A stretch of DNA of 61,316 nucleotides from a candidate division Zixibacteria bacterium RBG_16_53_22 (lineage in GTDB: Bacteria > Zixibacteria > MSB-5A5 > UBA10806): the NCBI GenBank assembly GCA_001775395.1, contig MEWP01000013.1:1-61316 (forward strand). Direction: 5' to 3'. This document shows positions 54,832-61,050 of the stretch, in pieces. A program made the translations under genes and the position numbers. Under the pieces are notes generated by a model. The model made no database searches. It was not told where the DNA came from and saw only the letters and a program-made list of their open reading frames with translations. Every line of letters starts with the position of its first letter. The first letter of the stretch is position 1.

Positions 54832-57531
54832 CTACGGACCTCTTTCATACCTGTCGCGATAGGGATCGTTGAATATGTTGATATCCGGTCGCTTAAAGGA
54901 GATGCTGTACTGGAAATAGCCGTCAAGTTGCGCCAGATCCAGCTCCGAAATGTCGAATTCTGTTCTTATCAAAGATTCGGTTGCCGCCGAATCGATGGCG
55001 TACTCTCCCGACGGGCCAATTATCTCGTAGTCTTTGACGATCCCGGCGATATCGAGCCTTATCTTGAAAATGACCTTGCCTTTGAGTTCCCTGGAGAGAA
55101 GCGCCTCGGGGTATATAAATTCCTCGACCCTCTTCGTCCTGGGCGCCAGAGGGAGATCGCCGGCCAGAGATTGAGCGGCAGTATCGGCCTCAGCCCCTTC
55201 CTGAGAAGGCGGCTTTTGCACATCCTGCGGTTGCTGGCTCTGCCGCGGCGGCGTGCGGCGCTTATCATTTCCGGATGCTGTGCCCAGTCTCTGGCTGGCA
55301 GCCTGCGCATATACCGTTTCGGGGTATTTTTCCGCGACCGAGGCGTAGGCAAAAAAGGCCGAACTGTCCTCGACACCTTTGACCTGATCGAGGATCCAGG
55401 CGGCGGCAAATGCGGCTTTGGGGGCCAGGTCGGGATAATTCCCGGCAATGTATCTGAAAAGAGTAAGCGCGGAATCAGGACTATTAGCGAAAAAGACCAG
55501 GCTCTCGGCAGCCGCATAAAGGCCAAGCGCATTACCTGTAAGGTCAAATGGGGAATTCATGATTTCCGCCGCCCGCGCGGCCTGGGGTGATTCGCGATAT
55601 TCGGAAATGACTCTCCGCAGGTATGTATACGCGGCCGTGGTATCGCCACGGTCGAGTTCTACTTGAGCAGCCGCCAAAAGCGATTTTGGGGCATATGGAG
55701 ATTCGGGGTGTTCCTTGGCAATCATGAGGTATTCGTTGATGGCGGAGTCGGGACGATTTAACTCATACGCGTAAAGCTCGGAAAGCAAATATCGGGTTTC
55801 AATTCCAGCTTTGAGTATGGCCGCCCTGAGGCTATCCTCGTTCGTTGATCCCCGGGCAGAGGGGGTGCCGGCTGGAGCGACAGCCGCCGGCGTCATCACC
55901 TGTGCGGAGGTATCCTGTCGGCCCGGAAGGACGGTATCGATCATACTCGGGATTGCCCGTGCCAGCGTATCGGGCGATAAATCGGCGTTCAGGAGCGTCA
56001 TCAGGCGAGCGGCACGAAGCGAATCGTCCGGCGTGGCGATGGAAGGGATCGAGAACTCTTCTTGTTCGTTGCCGCGAAATGTCGTATCGCCGATAACAGC
56101 GCTTGATAATGAATCGACACCGGATCGTATGACTGAATCGGAATTCGAGATCGAGGGTGGCGGAATGGAATCTTCTTTGATAAGCTCCGGCTGGACCGCT
56201 AACGTGTCGAAAGCCGGCTCAACTTGACCGGAATCCGCAACCGCGCCCGATGAATCGATGCCGGCTGGGGCCGGCTGAATGTCGGGGGCCGTGGAAGGCT
56301 GAAGATCGCCGCCCAATGAACTTAACTCTTCGGCCCTCTTGAGCGAATCCGCCCGTTGAAGCTCCGCCTGATACGACTCGAGCTTGGCAATCTGCGCGGA
56401 ACGCGCCAGGGCGAGATTCTTGAATTGGGAATTCGGCGTCTCCTGTTGGGCCTTGGCAAACGCATCTTTGGCCCCTGCCAGATCGAACTTGTCATTTTGA
56501 TATATGAGGCCGAGTTTGTAAAAAGCCTCGGCCGATTCATTGGTCTTGGGGTTCGACGTCGTGACATTCTGATAAGTTTCAATTGCCTTATCGATGTCGC
56601 CCTGGAGGTAATGGCCCTCGGCCACGCGCAAGCGAATCTCGCCGGAACGCGAGAAGTAACGCTCGTCCTTGGCCAGTCTGTCCAGGATTCTCATGCCCAG
56701 CTCGACTGAATCGCTCTTGAGGGCGGCCGTTGCGGAGGCCAGGGTAGCCTCAAAATAAAGAAGGCGGTCCGGGTTGAATTTCACGACAGCGGCATAGGCC
56801 TGGTATGCTCCAGTGAAATGGTTTTGTTTTTCACGACAGAAGCCCAAATTATATGTGGCTCTGGCGGAGGAATCTCCTCCGGGAAATTTGGCCACATAGT
56901 CGGCAAAATACTCATCGGCCTGGCGGTAATTCTCCGACATCATCTCCATGGCCCCCTCGGCGAAGAGCATATCATCCAGGTAGGGGCTTTTCCCGTAGGT
57001 GTCTTCGAGAGCGGCGAAAGCGGATAGAGCCTGGTCGTTGTGACCGAGGAACATCTCGCACAAACCCATGTAATAATACGATTCGTCGGCGAATTTCGAT
57101 TTCGGGTGGTTAGTAACGAGTTCTTTGAACCTTCTGTCGGCGGGCAGATAATCACCCATGTTGTAATATGATTTACCGATCAGCCATAGGGCATCATCGA
57201 CCCACTTGGAATTAGGGTGATATTGAAGGACCTGGTTGGCCTTGGCGATAGCATCCTTATAGAGGTTTTTCTCCTGCATGTTAACCATCGAGCCGGTTTG
57301 CTCTCTGGGCTGCGGCCCCTGGGATGGAATTGCGGGCGAGCGTTGACCGGGCGGCGTGACCGGCGACAGTGGCGTCTGGCCCATCCTTTCCAAATTTTGG
57401 GCCTGGCTTTTCTCGGCCTCCTCGAATTTTTGTTTGGCGTGGAAAAAAGTATTGTAGTAGACACAAGCGGAGCCGAGTATAAGGATAACCAAGAAAAGAG
57501 GAATCGCTGCCTGATGACGCCGACTAAACAT
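54832..57531 (-). CDS. TPR-repeat lipoprotein with TonB_C-like C-terminal domain
   Basis: An 899-residue protein with a lipoprotein signal (IPLFLVILILGSAC, then VYYNTFFHAKQKFEEAEK, a run typical of FCB TPR lipoproteins). Residues 70-390 hold at least eight TPR units (KDAIAKANQVLQYHPNSKWVDD, YLPADRRFKELVTNHPKSKFADE and others). Residues 400-580 are a low-complexity Ser/Pro-rich linker. More TPRs cover 580-760, then a Pro/Gln-rich hinge. The last 100 residues (PEALLSRELKGKVIFKIRLDIAGIV) resemble the TonB C-terminal domain, which contacts receptors or peptidoglycan. It probably organises envelope complexes. Immediately upstream of pyrK in the same frame. Confidence 0.85.
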   Translation of the reverse strand: MFSRRHQAAIPLFLVILILGSACVYYNTFFHAKQKFEEAEKSQAQNLERMGQTPLSPVTPPGQRSPAIPSQGPQPREQTGSMVNMQEKNLYKDAIAKANQVLQYHPNSKWVDDALWLIGKSYYNMGDYLPADRRFKELVTNHPKSKFADESYYYMGLCEMFLGHNDQALSAFAALEDTYGKSPYLDDMLFAEGAMEMMSENYRQADEYFADYVAKFPGGDSSARATYNLGFCREKQNHFTGAYQAYAAVVKFNPDRLLYFEATLASATAALKSDSVELGMRILDRLAKDERYFSRSGEIRLRVAEGHYLQGDIDKAIETYQNVTTSNPKTNESAEAFYKLGLIYQNDKFDLAGAKDAFAKAQQETPNSQFKNLALARSAQIAKLESYQAELQRADSLKRAEELSSLGGDLQPSTAPDIQPAPAGIDSSGAVADSGQVEPAFDTLAVQPELIKEDSIPPPSISNSDSVIRSGVDSLSSAVIGDTTFRGNEQEEFSIPSIATPDDSLRAARLMTLLNADLSPDTLARAIPSMIDTVLPGRQDTSAQVMTPAAVAPAGTPSARGSTNEDSLRAAILKAGIETRYLLSELYAYELNRPDSAINEYLMIAKEHPESPYAPKSLLAAAQVELDRGDTTAAYTYLRRVISEYRESPQAARAAEIMNSPFDLTGNALGLYAAAESLVFFANSPDSALTLFRYIAGNYPDLAPKAAFAAAWILDQVKGVEDSSAFFAYASVAEKYPETVYAQAASQRLGTASGNDKRRTPPRQSQQPQDVQKPPSQEGAEADTAAQSLAGDLPLAPRTKRVEEFIYPEALLSRELKGKVIFKIRLDIAGIVKDYEIIGPSGEYAIDSAATESLIRTEFDISELDLAQLDGYFQYSISFKRPDINIFNDPYRDRYERGP

Positions 57532-57690: not shown

Positions 57691-58326
57691 TTACCCGCCA
57701 AAGAATGCCGTCAAGCTGTTCACATATCCTCTCAAGAAGATCACCCTCTGAACCAGCAGAGCGATACGGCCCATTACAGTCATCCCGAAGCCGGCTCCGA
57801 AGCCGATCATGATGACGTAAATACCGATCCTGGAAATTACCCCCATGGAGCCCTTATGGGCAGCCGAGAAGAAGAAGTAAACCAGGGCGGAGAGTACTCC
57901 CACGATAATGAGGAACGAGGAGATCCCGGCAGCATCGAACGTGAGGGGTTGGTTGATAGTGGCCTCGAGTTGGCGGAATAGCGAGGCGTAGAGAGACAAG
58001 GTGATCGTGATGCCAGAGGAGATGCCGATGTAGAAGGCGATCGAGTAACGCGAGACCCACGACCACTTTTTCGAAAAGCGAGTCCACATCATGAGCCCGA
58101 GCATGGTCGGGATGATGTATTCGTACCTGCCATCATGAGCCAAGCGGTTCCAGACAACCGGTACAAAATTGGTATGGAAAAGGAGCATGGTCCAGTATCC
58201 CGTTGCAACGCCGGCTACCAGGCGCTCGGCGAACTTGTAGAACGGGTTATCCCTATAGAGGAAGCTGAAGATGCACAATGTCAGGAAGGCCGCCAGGCCA
58301 TTGAGTAACAATTGTCCGCCGGTCAT
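57691..58326 (-). CDS. Membrane protein of the four-gene operon, unknown (gene 4)
   Basis: ATG 58326 follows AGGAGG and overlaps the preceding stop (ATGA). The 211-residue product is almost entirely hydrophobic with about seven helices (LLLNGLAAFLTLCIFSFLY, IIPTMLGLMMWTRF, IAFYIGISSGITITLSLYA, ISSFLIIVGVLSALVYFFF, IGIYVIMIGFGAGFGMTVMGRIALL). Charges cluster in loops (RFSKKWSW, RDNPFYKFAERL). No transporter or enzyme motif is seen. Function unknown. Confidence 0.8.
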   Translation of the reverse strand: MTGGQLLLNGLAAFLTLCIFSFLYRDNPFYKFAERLVAGVATGYWTMLLFHTNFVPVVWNRLAHDGRYEYIIPTMLGLMMWTRFSKKWSWVSRYSIAFYIGISSGITITLSLYASLFRQLEATINQPLTFDAAGISSFLIIVGVLSALVYFFFSAAHKGSMGVISRIGIYVIMIGFGAGFGMTVMGRIALLVQRVIFLRGYVNSLTAFFGG

Positions 58327-59171
58327 TGGGCACCTCCTATTGTCTTCTTCTGCCGTCTCGTGGCGAAATAGGCGACGTTGGACATCACGATAAACAAAAT
58401 AATCACCGAGTGGGCTACGAGCTGGTAAGAGACCTGTTCTTTTCCCTGGCCGGGCTTGCCGATCATTTGCTCATATTCGGCAGCGCCCTTGACACCGGGG
58501 ATAATCCCAAAGATCTGGTCCGATTGTAGATACTGGTAATAATCGGCAGCCATGACCCCCGTAATTCCTATCGCCAATGGAAAATTAAAGCGGCCGTTGC
58601 CGTATACGATCCACATATCAGCGGTATTGCCGGCCGTCAGATCGATCACGCCCCGGACATTGTTGAAGTTCTTGACGCCTTGCATGATGGGCAGCGAATC
58701 CAAGGGAGTACCGTAGTAGTCCTGTGGGAACGGGACGCGGAAATCGGTGCCCATGAGCATGATCGTGATGGCCGGATAGGGGCGATAGCCGAGGAAGGCG
58801 TAGTCGACTCCATATTGCCTGTTATACTCTTTGCCGATACGGGTGGTGATCTCCTCAACCATGCCCGGTCCGAACTGCGCCAGGGTCACGATGATTACCT
58901 TGCGGTCCTCGGAGAAGGCGTGCTTGAGAATCGCCTCGGCCATAGGATTCAACTCCGCCATCGACGACGGGTCGTAATCCATCGCCAAAAAGAGGGGATT
59001 GTTAGAATCGGTGTTTTCCACAAAGTCGTGAACATTCTTCACTTCTTTTGAAACCGGCACCGGAACCGTAAACGGGATAATGGCAGGTATGATCACCGCC
59101 AGACCGATGGCCAGGTAGATCCAGCGACGGTCTATTTTCATCATCTGTTCTAAGAATCTCATAACCGTCAC
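58323..59171 (-). CDS. Membrane-anchored periplasmic-domain protein, unknown (gene 3)
   Basis: The GTG at 59171 and ATG at 59162 (MRFLEQMMKIDRR) are both possible; GGGGG upstream fits the ATG better. About 280 residues: one N-terminal helix (IYLAIGLAVIIPAIIPF), a periplasmic domain of about 170 residues with VHDFVENTDSNNPLFLAMDYDPSSMAE and VDYAFLGYRPYPAITIMLMGTDF, then a second helix near residue 255 (SVIILFIVMSNVAYF). The order looks like a substrate- or partner-binding domain held between two anchors. I know no homologue of defined function. Confidence 0.8.
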   Translation of the reverse strand: MTVMRFLEQMMKIDRRWIYLAIGLAVIIPAIIPFTVPVPVSKEVKNVHDFVENTDSNNPLFLAMDYDPSSMAELNPMAEAILKHAFSEDRKVIIVTLAQFGPGMVEEITTRIGKEYNRQYGVDYAFLGYRPYPAITIMLMGTDFRVPFPQDYYGTPLDSLPIMQGVKNFNNVRGVIDLTAGNTADMWIVYGNGRFNFPLAIGITGVMAADYYQYLQSDQIFGIIPGVKGAAEYEQMIGKPGQGKEQVSYQLVAHSVIILFIVMSNVAYFATRRQKKTIGGAQ

Positions 59172-59174
59172 CCC

Positions 59175-59810
59175 CTAATCCCGGCCCATATAGGTTCGTT
59201 CAATTCCAAGTATTATCTTAATCGCCGTGGCGGTGGCGCCCAACGCAATCCCCATGGCGATGGCGCGCTTGGCGGCCATGTTGGGCACCATCAGGATCTT
59301 CTCGACCAGCCAGTTGTTGATGTCCGATATGGGCCCCATTGGGATGAACCGCATCATGATGATGAAAGCGGTCAAAAGCAATATGGTTGCCAACACTGAA
59401 CGCGCCCGGAAGGCCCGATAGGCGGCCGATGCCACGAAAAATGCCAGCAGCGAGAATATGGTCGACTGAATCGGAATCAGGACGCTCTGGAATATGGCCA
59501 GATGCACCCCCTTGGTGCGCCATTCGGGCATCCAGCCGCTGATTACCATAACAAGAAAGCCCATAAGAAGAATTGCGGAGTAGAATCTCTCGTCCGCGGC
59601 TTTCAATTTATTGACATTGGCTTTCAGCAGGCTCCAGATTCCCAGGGGAAGCGACAGGATGCCGATCACCATCACCCAGTCATTAAGGAATTCGAAGAGT
59701 TTTTCCGAGCTAATAAATGGAATGAACAGGAATCTGCCCGGAAAGAAATATTGAAGAAACATGATTATACCCGTAACCATGACAATCATTAACGGTATTT
59801 CTCTTTTCAT
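59175..59810 (-). CDS. Membrane protein of the four-gene operon, unknown (gene 2)
   Basis: ATG 59810 follows GGGAG. The 211-residue protein has about six helices (LMIVMVTGIIMFLQYFF, DWVMVIGILSLPLGIWSLL, AILLMGFLVMVISGWM, IFSLLAFFVASAAYRAF, TILLLTAFIIMMRFIPM, AIAMGIALGATATAIKIILG). Loops carry KANVNKLKAADERF and RAFRARS. It lies 13 bases past the DUF6754-like gene. Not assignable by motif. Confidence 0.8.
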   Translation of the reverse strand: MKREIPLMIVMVTGIIMFLQYFFPGRFLFIPFISSEKLFEFLNDWVMVIGILSLPLGIWSLLKANVNKLKAADERFYSAILLMGFLVMVISGWMPEWRTKGVHLAIFQSVLIPIQSTIFSLLAFFVASAAYRAFRARSVLATILLLTAFIIMMRFIPMGPISDINNWLVEKILMVPNMAAKRAIAMGIALGATATAIKIILGIERTYMGRD

Positions 59811-59823
59811 CGCGCACTCCCGG

Positions 59824-61050
59824 TTACAGGTTAATGGTTACAAGGTTTCTGAGGAATGGCCAGCCGGCAGTAATGGCGATCGCCCCGAGGATGATAAAGG
59901 CCATTACGATTGCCTTGGTGTAATCCTGGGCCTTTAATGTCCCCAACTGGACCGGTTCCTGCGAGAGGTATGCCGAGGCGGCGTAGAGCTCCTCGCCGAT
60001 CAAAGTGTAATCGGTGGCCGCGACAAAGAATGGCAGCTGGGCCACCTGGTCGGTGCCGGAGATCTGAATCGAGCCGGCGATATTGCCGGTTTCGGCCAAG
60101 ATCAGCGATTCGGCATAAAAAACGCCCATATAGAAATTTGTAGCGGGATGCTCGCGAAGCATGATACCATTGACTGCGGCTACGTAGGGGAATTGCATTG
60201 AGGTTACGAAGAAGACGTTCTCCGGATTGTACTGGTCGGGGCGTCCGGCCTCAAGGTAGGCAGTCCGGACCGTTTCCTGGGCCACGGCAAGGACCACTGG
60301 ATCCTGCACTGGCACAATTACCTTGGTCTGGTATTCGGCGGTTCGCTTGGCCACGCGCGACAAAATCGTAAAGCCAGCGATCGTGGCGATGTCGCCGGCA
60401 GTACCCAGCCCCAGGATGTAGAGGATCGGTTTGCCCATCTCGGTTGCCCGCCCGATAGCGTCATCCACCGCATTTATACCAGCCAGGGGCCTGACATACA
60501 TCTTCTTGCCTTTTCGAGCTGAGGAGATGAAAATTATCAGGAACACCGTAAATGTAATAGCGGCCACTCCGATCGGAATCTTGCCGGTGTGAATCCAATT
60601 TTCAATAGTCGTGCCGGAGGCAACGCTGGAAAATTCCGAGCGCACCTGATTGTCGGAAATGGCCAGGATCTTGTAAAACCAGGTGCTGTTGACCGGCATG
60701 AAATTGGGATTGGGATGTTCGCTGTTGGGCTCGGTTTCATCGAAATCGACATACTCGGTTATCCCTCTCGGCACCACCCCGCGCGAGATAAATTCACCGT
60801 CAGGCGAACCTGCCCGGAACACCTCATAGATGGCGACATTGTTGAGTCCCGCGCTGTCATCTGGCGACAGGTCCCATTTGACAATAAGGCCGTGTCCAGC
60901 GTCATTTGGCCTGTCAACAACCCGGACATTTGTCGGAGGCGCCGGGGCCGGCGGGGCCAGGCCTGCACTATCCGGTATCGCCTCCTGACCGATGGCCAGG
61001 CTGGAGCTAATTATGACAAGACACAATAACATAATGAGTTTTTTTGTCAT
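59824..61050 (-). CDS. Fibronectin-like plus DUF6754-type membrane protein, first gene of the operon
   Basis: ATG 61050 follows AAGGAGAG. The 408-residue protein has a signal peptide (LIMLLCLVIISSSLAIG), a fibronectin type III-like domain at about residues 38-150 (PPTNVRVVDRP...IVKWDLSPDD...YEVFRAGSPDGEF), a membrane helix (IPIGVAAITFTVFLIIFIS, about 155-180) and a cytoplasmic domain opening GKKMYVRPLAGINAVDDAIGRATEMGKPILYILG, with AATDYTLIGEELYAASAYLSQEPVQLG near its end, which I place in DUF6754. A last helix (IVMAFIILGAIAITAGW) ends the chain. No function is established for the family. Promoter-proximal gene. Confidence 0.8.
   Translation of the reverse strand: MTKKLIMLLCLVIISSSLAIGQEAIPDSAGLAPPAPAPPTNVRVVDRPNDAGHGLIVKWDLSPDDSAGLNNVAIYEVFRAGSPDGEFISRGVVPRGITEYVDFDETEPNSEHPNPNFMPVNSTWFYKILAISDNQVRSEFSSVASGTTIENWIHTGKIPIGVAAITFTVFLIIFISSARKGKKMYVRPLAGINAVDDAIGRATEMGKPILYILGLGTAGDIATIAGFTILSRVAKRTAEYQTKVIVPVQDPVVLAVAQETVRTAYLEAGRPDQYNPENVFFVTSMQFPYVAAVNGIMLREHPATNFYMGVFYAESLILAETGNIAGSIQISGTDQVAQLPFFVAATDYTLIGEELYAASAYLSQEPVQLGTLKAQDYTKAIVMAFIILGAIAITAGWPFLRNLVTINL

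Follow-up and report, generated by a model that had tools for sequence, protein, structure and literature searches.

A DUF6754 membrane block and its co-inherited partner families: a predicted membrane system in Candidatus Zixiibacteriota and other lineages

Group II ECF transporters use one cytosolic core with several alternative membrane modules per genome, and Rnf/Nqr complexes contain two polytopic subunits of approximately 200 residues together with a periplasmic subunit. In the GlmL/MutL family of ASKHA proteins, GlmL is thought to be an activase or reactivase for glutamate mutase. GlmL-like proteins are not known to us as motors, and we know of no precedent in this ATPase family for a shared ASKHA core that drives membrane units.

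The genes described here lie close to the end of the window (the whole 61,316-nucleotide stretch of DNA analysed, whose contig continues past it, to 84,251 bases). One of them encodes a member of DUF6754 (PF20539), a family characterised solely as a domain of unknown function; the three membrane partners and the soluble partners of this protein are in no entry that we found, and DUF6754 appears in no paper of the open-licence literature searched. A survey of unknown gene families that define lineages does not name Zixibacteria in its main text (PMC10849945). Within the open-licence papers searched, the inner-membrane machine that we propose seems to be undescribed. At least seven families form a conserved membrane system, which every sampled genome of the phylum Candidatus Zixiibacteriota possesses, as do about a quarter of the other lineages sampled. 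None of 14 well-known control genomes carries the DUF6754 system, which may be why it has been overlooked.

Gene layout and predicted topology

All four genes, called as open reading frames (ORFs), lie on the minus strand and run from P1 (59824–61050; 408 aa) through P2 (59175–59810; 211 aa) and P3 to P4 (57691–58326; 211 aa). P3 occupies 58323–59171 if it starts at a GTG (282 aa), or 58323–59162 if it starts at an ATG. The ATG at 59162 is the likelier start, since an AGGGGG Shine-Dalgarno sequence overlaps the GTG and P3 relatives begin closer to the DRR motif. An earlier note on this DNA had given gaps of 13, 3 and −4 bases for P1–P2, P2–P3 and P3–P4; the first and last stand, whereas the middle one, 3 bases from the GTG, is probably 12 given the likelier P3 start. 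Shine-Dalgarno sequences of plausible quality precede all four genes: that of P1, AAGGAGAG, lies ahead of its ATG, while P4, whose ATG overlaps the P3 stop, has a strong AGGAGGT. A hairpin of 14 pairs 3′ of P4 (57638–57669, minus strand; z = −4.05 against shuffled sequences) is a possible terminator with a weak T tail. The ORFs and the folding both bear out the description of four genes with a hairpin at the end. The next gene upstream of P1, on the same strand and 603 bases away, appears to encode a heavy-metal-type P-type ATPase; past the right end of the window (L174 6655–9294), it reads by eye as a copper/heavy-metal ATPase of this class and carries a DPVCGMEV motif.

P1 is a member of DUF6754 (E 3.9e-115, 383.8 bits against a curated cut-off of 27). 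Its predicted order is an N-terminal signal or anchor, a periplasmic Fn3 domain, a transmembrane (TM) segment, the alpha/beta DUF6754 domain, probably cytosolic, and a C-terminal TM segment. The Fn3 domain (60607–60951, minus strand; approx. residues 34–148) was found by hmmsearch, with profile matches to titin and other Fn3 domains, and Foldseek and the AlphaFold2 model of P1 (mean pLDDT 88.8) agree. Across homologues this head region ranges in length from none to approximately 670 aa. The DUF6754 domain (59851–60603, minus strand; residues 150–400 by Pfam) is the best-conserved part of the unit, with 32 invariant columns among 60 homologues. P2, with six hydrophobic segments, is predicted from hydropathy to be a six-TM protein without a database family, and P4 is polytopic, mostly with 5–6 TM segments across its family. 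In P3, two TM segments flank a Rossmann-like alpha/beta domain of approximately 210 residues (58422–59063, minus strand; approx. residues 37–250 numbered from the GTG), modelled by AlphaFold2 with a mean pLDDT of 94.0. A positive-inside pattern is seen in 87 of 88 P1 homologues, and the charges flanking the P3 TM segments in 94 homologues are the basis for placing its domain. Taken over 94 complete units, hydropathy and charge predict that the Fn3 and P3 domains are periplasmic and DUF6754 cytosolic. This topology agrees with the earlier description of an Fn3/DUF6754-type protein, two polytopic proteins (P2 and P4) and a protein with a periplasmic domain between two anchors (P3). The absence of assigned roles that the same note had remarked on also stands: P2–P4 matched no family in the Pfam profile search, and an NCBIfam search with P1–P4 gave nothing credible, its sole trace being P3 to YajC (E 0.088).

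The arrangement of P3, an alpha/beta domain between two anchors, is like that of GldFG-type proteins (PF09822), and the block could on that basis be a distant relative of GldFG/ABC-2 gliding or transport modules, with P3 as the GldG periplasmic domain. Such a relationship is highly improbable: hhalign against 16 PF09822 proteins gave a 25-column match confined to the anchor, at a probability of 2%, on which GldG homology of P3 was rejected, and an ABC ATPase is never a constant partner. P1–P4 match no named component of type IX secretion or gliding in NCBIfam; the comparison with secretion and gliding machines yielded neither a T9SS nor a GldG match. Foldseek searches with the P3 model returned nothing below E 1e-3 and those with the P1 model were dominated by Fn3 matches, so the folds lend no support to a transport function. 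The idea that P1–P3 and P2–P4 are pairs of ancient duplicates was rejected, as profile comparison gave no similarity; the P1 and P3 models are alike in their alternating strands and helices despite this dissimilarity.

Conservation and duplication of the block

Every one of the 133 phylum genomes has DUF6754, mostly in 3–6 copies; outside the phylum, 40 of the 156 genomes sampled have it (nearly all of different families, and with some of the 156 incomplete). Two related contigs were assigned to Ca. Zixiibacteriota, and searches of viral contigs and plasmids found no relatives. Gene order is shared across lineages far beyond chance. In a gene-neighbourhood check across phyla, limited to copies with enough flank, the four genes stood together as P1-P2-P3-P4 in 104 of 112 copies (45/46 within the phylum and 59/66 elsewhere); of the intergenic gaps, 90–97% measure 30 bases or fewer. 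Separation of the genes in relatives, or a match to a known complex, would have spoken against the earlier note; neither emerged from the searches. Among the 156 outside genomes, P3 was found in 40/40 DUF6754 carriers and, as a weak match (3.4e-30), in one of the 116 others, G224, which has no DUF6754 match. At three loci P1 has no P2–P4 directly behind it (L104 8693–11482, L103 6692–7903 and L095 6243–7427); in L104 a 929-aa P1 comes immediately after a complete unit.

Protein distances co-vary among P1–P4 (Mantel r 0.69–0.82, against at most 0.24 in permutations). In a FastTree phylogeny of concatenated units, paralogous classes span genera and interleave with other lineages, and the window's unit clusters with a single unit from each of G116, G117 and G118 and with one from contig L006; the tree is unrooted and its inner forks are weak, so the broad reading alone is used here. 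As P1–P4 diverge in step and the paralogous units are old, duplication took place as a block. By these sequence comparisons, the block has been kept and duplicated whole, and genomes carry several paralogous forms of old origin. Four DUF6754 matches come from the genome of the window; besides the one described here, three (C39, C41 and C161) sit at contig ends or on short contigs, and two of these are cut, which suggests that paralogous units may break the assembly.

We infer from gene order and co-divergence that P1–P4 very probably form one complex, which strengthens the same proposal in the earlier note. The alternative, that the genes sit together by chance or through a housekeeping neighbourhood and do not build one complex, would have to accommodate conserved order, tight spacing, block duplication, co-divergence and the near-exclusive co-occurrence described below, and we regard it as very unlikely indeed.

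Partner families and a possible envelope machine

Four further families recur with the block. C1 (approx. 610 aa) belongs to the GlmL/MutL ASKHA family (PF13941, E about 1e-128), is nearest to GlmL and to ornithine-degradation GlmL relatives and retains the nucleotide motifs DCGSTTTK, DIGGATTD and GSGGVLS. With that family (PF13941, NF040745, NF040744 and TIGR01319) it shares these motifs and a body of approximately 450 residues; unlike named GlmL proteins, it has an extra C-terminal region of approximately 115–130 residues and tracks a membrane unit. Its scores fall short of the curated thresholds for the named GlmL models (235 bits against 475 for the NCBIfam GlmL equivalog), and by that measure it is not the glutamate-mutase accessory protein proper. 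C0 is a soluble protein of approximately 375 aa with weak RnfC_N barrel-sandwich-hybrid and KOW matches, n0 is small (approx. 125 aa), and n3, a recurrent neighbour of approximately 150 aa, has two TM segments and weak PH-like matches.

In the sample of 156 genomes from outside the phylum, 38/40 DUF6754 carriers and 0/116 others have C0, 38/40 and 1/116 have n0, and 35/40 and 1/116 have C1 at E below 1e-100 (Fisher p 3e-28 or lower, a value that overstates certainty given that the genomes share ancestry). The exception for both C1 and n0 is G218, of 85% completeness, where the two are an adjacent pair and P1, P3 and C0 were undetected. C1–C0 lie immediately upstream of P1 in many lineages, and single runs of n3, n0, C1, C0 and P genes are found in L086, L089, L100 and L124. 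The window's contig has neither C0 nor C1 near the upstream side of P1; in this genome, contigs 42, 47 and 8 carry C0, C1 and n0, respectively. These patterns indicate a co-inherited system made up of the membrane unit and soluble families, one of them a putative ATPase that has kept its motifs.

The system resembles Rnf/Nqr complexes in having two polytopic subunits of approximately 200 residues and a periplasmic subunit, and C0 matches RnfC_N at E 0.0012, below the cut-off. It differs in that P2, P4 and C0 have no invariant or nearly invariant Cys for Fe-S centres, and no invariant Cys was found anywhere in the P1–P4 or C0 alignments. An Rnf/Nqr identity was rejected on the lack of conserved Cys and of any Rnf/Nqr chain among profile matches to PDB sequences. 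Two other ideas were also set aside. PADLOC models for anti-phage defence were unmatched by P1–P4, C0, C1 and n3, with trace matches alone for n0, and Omp85, present in 39/40 carriers and also in 36/40 non-carriers, gave no sign of a diderm-only distribution.

Genomes mostly encode one C0/C1, and P units usually number 3–6 in the phylum. This layout is like that of group II ECF transporters; the sequences are unrelated and C1 is an ASKHA instead of an ABC ATPase, so the likeness is one of analogy. It is this resemblance to transporters whose several membrane modules draw on one energy module that leads us to favour a role in transport or assembly, and we tentatively read P1–P4 as the inner-membrane unit of an envelope machine. 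A single C1–C0 pair would bind P1 at its cytosolic, near-invariant DUF6754 face and would spend ATP to drive, assemble or reset the P unit engaged. P2 and P4 would make the membrane path, and P3 and the variable P1 head, facing the periplasm, would set what each unit handles. Going a step further, and with more reserve, the system may represent a new class of envelope machine, in which a GlmL-type ASKHA ATPase and a dedicated adaptor serve exchangeable four-subunit units in about a quarter of the sampled lineages. A shared ASKHA core that really drove or assembled the units would be an arrangement without known precedent in this ATPase family, and with the gene set defined it is directly testable. 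Against a transport or assembly role stand the description of GlmL-like proteins as reactivases rather than motors, the two P-bearing genomes in which C0 is undetected (G189 and G208), the five that lack a clear C1, and neighbouring genes that suggest no consistent substrate.

Periplasmic heads that vary beside a cytosolic domain that hardly does, and several paralogous units with one common C0/C1, would also suit a sensory or regulatory scaffold, in which an external signal, bound by P3 and the P1 head, is relayed by DUF6754 to C0/C1. We find this doubtful, as two polytopic subunits per unit exceed a sensor's need and regulator or output domains are not recurrent nearby.

Genomic neighbours of the units

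Neighbouring genes, which were called mechanically, bear on a further reading, in which the P unit would be an enzyme in the membrane, C1 its ATP-dependent activase or reactivase and C0 a scaffold or carrier. C1 is closest to GlmL and to its ornithine-degradation relatives. In L089, L112, L124 and L146, gcvPA/gcvPB are found close to n0-C1-C0 or immediately ahead of n3; a lipoate-ligase-like gene is nearby in L112, L116 and L146. The gcvPA/gcvPB genes may point to a connection with glycine cleavage or with lipoylation, or may reflect just an old neighbourhood. No B12 enzyme is recurrent beside the cluster, however, P1–P4 and C0 lack any invariant Cys that might point to a metal or redox centre, and methylmalonyl-CoA mutase is missing in 12/40 P-bearing genomes; on balance we think a membrane-bound enzyme unlikely. 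For the specific candidate of C1 as a methylmalonyl-CoA mutase reactivase, the mutase showed no clear association (28/40 carriers against 22/40 non-carriers).

Among the paralogue classes, neighbouring genes show no common substrate theme. A divergent sugar-type ABC transporter, with a solute-binding protein and permeases, adjoins at least one class (L040, L049, L053, L057, L061, L064 and L067), and another class adjoins genes for SAM synthetase, AHCY and pantoate ligase. A small cluster that includes a Band 7/SPFH protein and a CBS-domain protein lies between two P units in L050 and L054 (G116 and G117). Downstream of the P unit in the window, before the pyrimidine genes, is the gene for a TPR protein (899 aa; C-terminal TonB domain; 54832–57531, minus strand). 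The protein resembles TPRs of the YbgF/BamD type and, at a weak 122 bits where the cut-off is 250, PorW/SprE, and a homologue is also found behind the unit in L052, L056 and L066.
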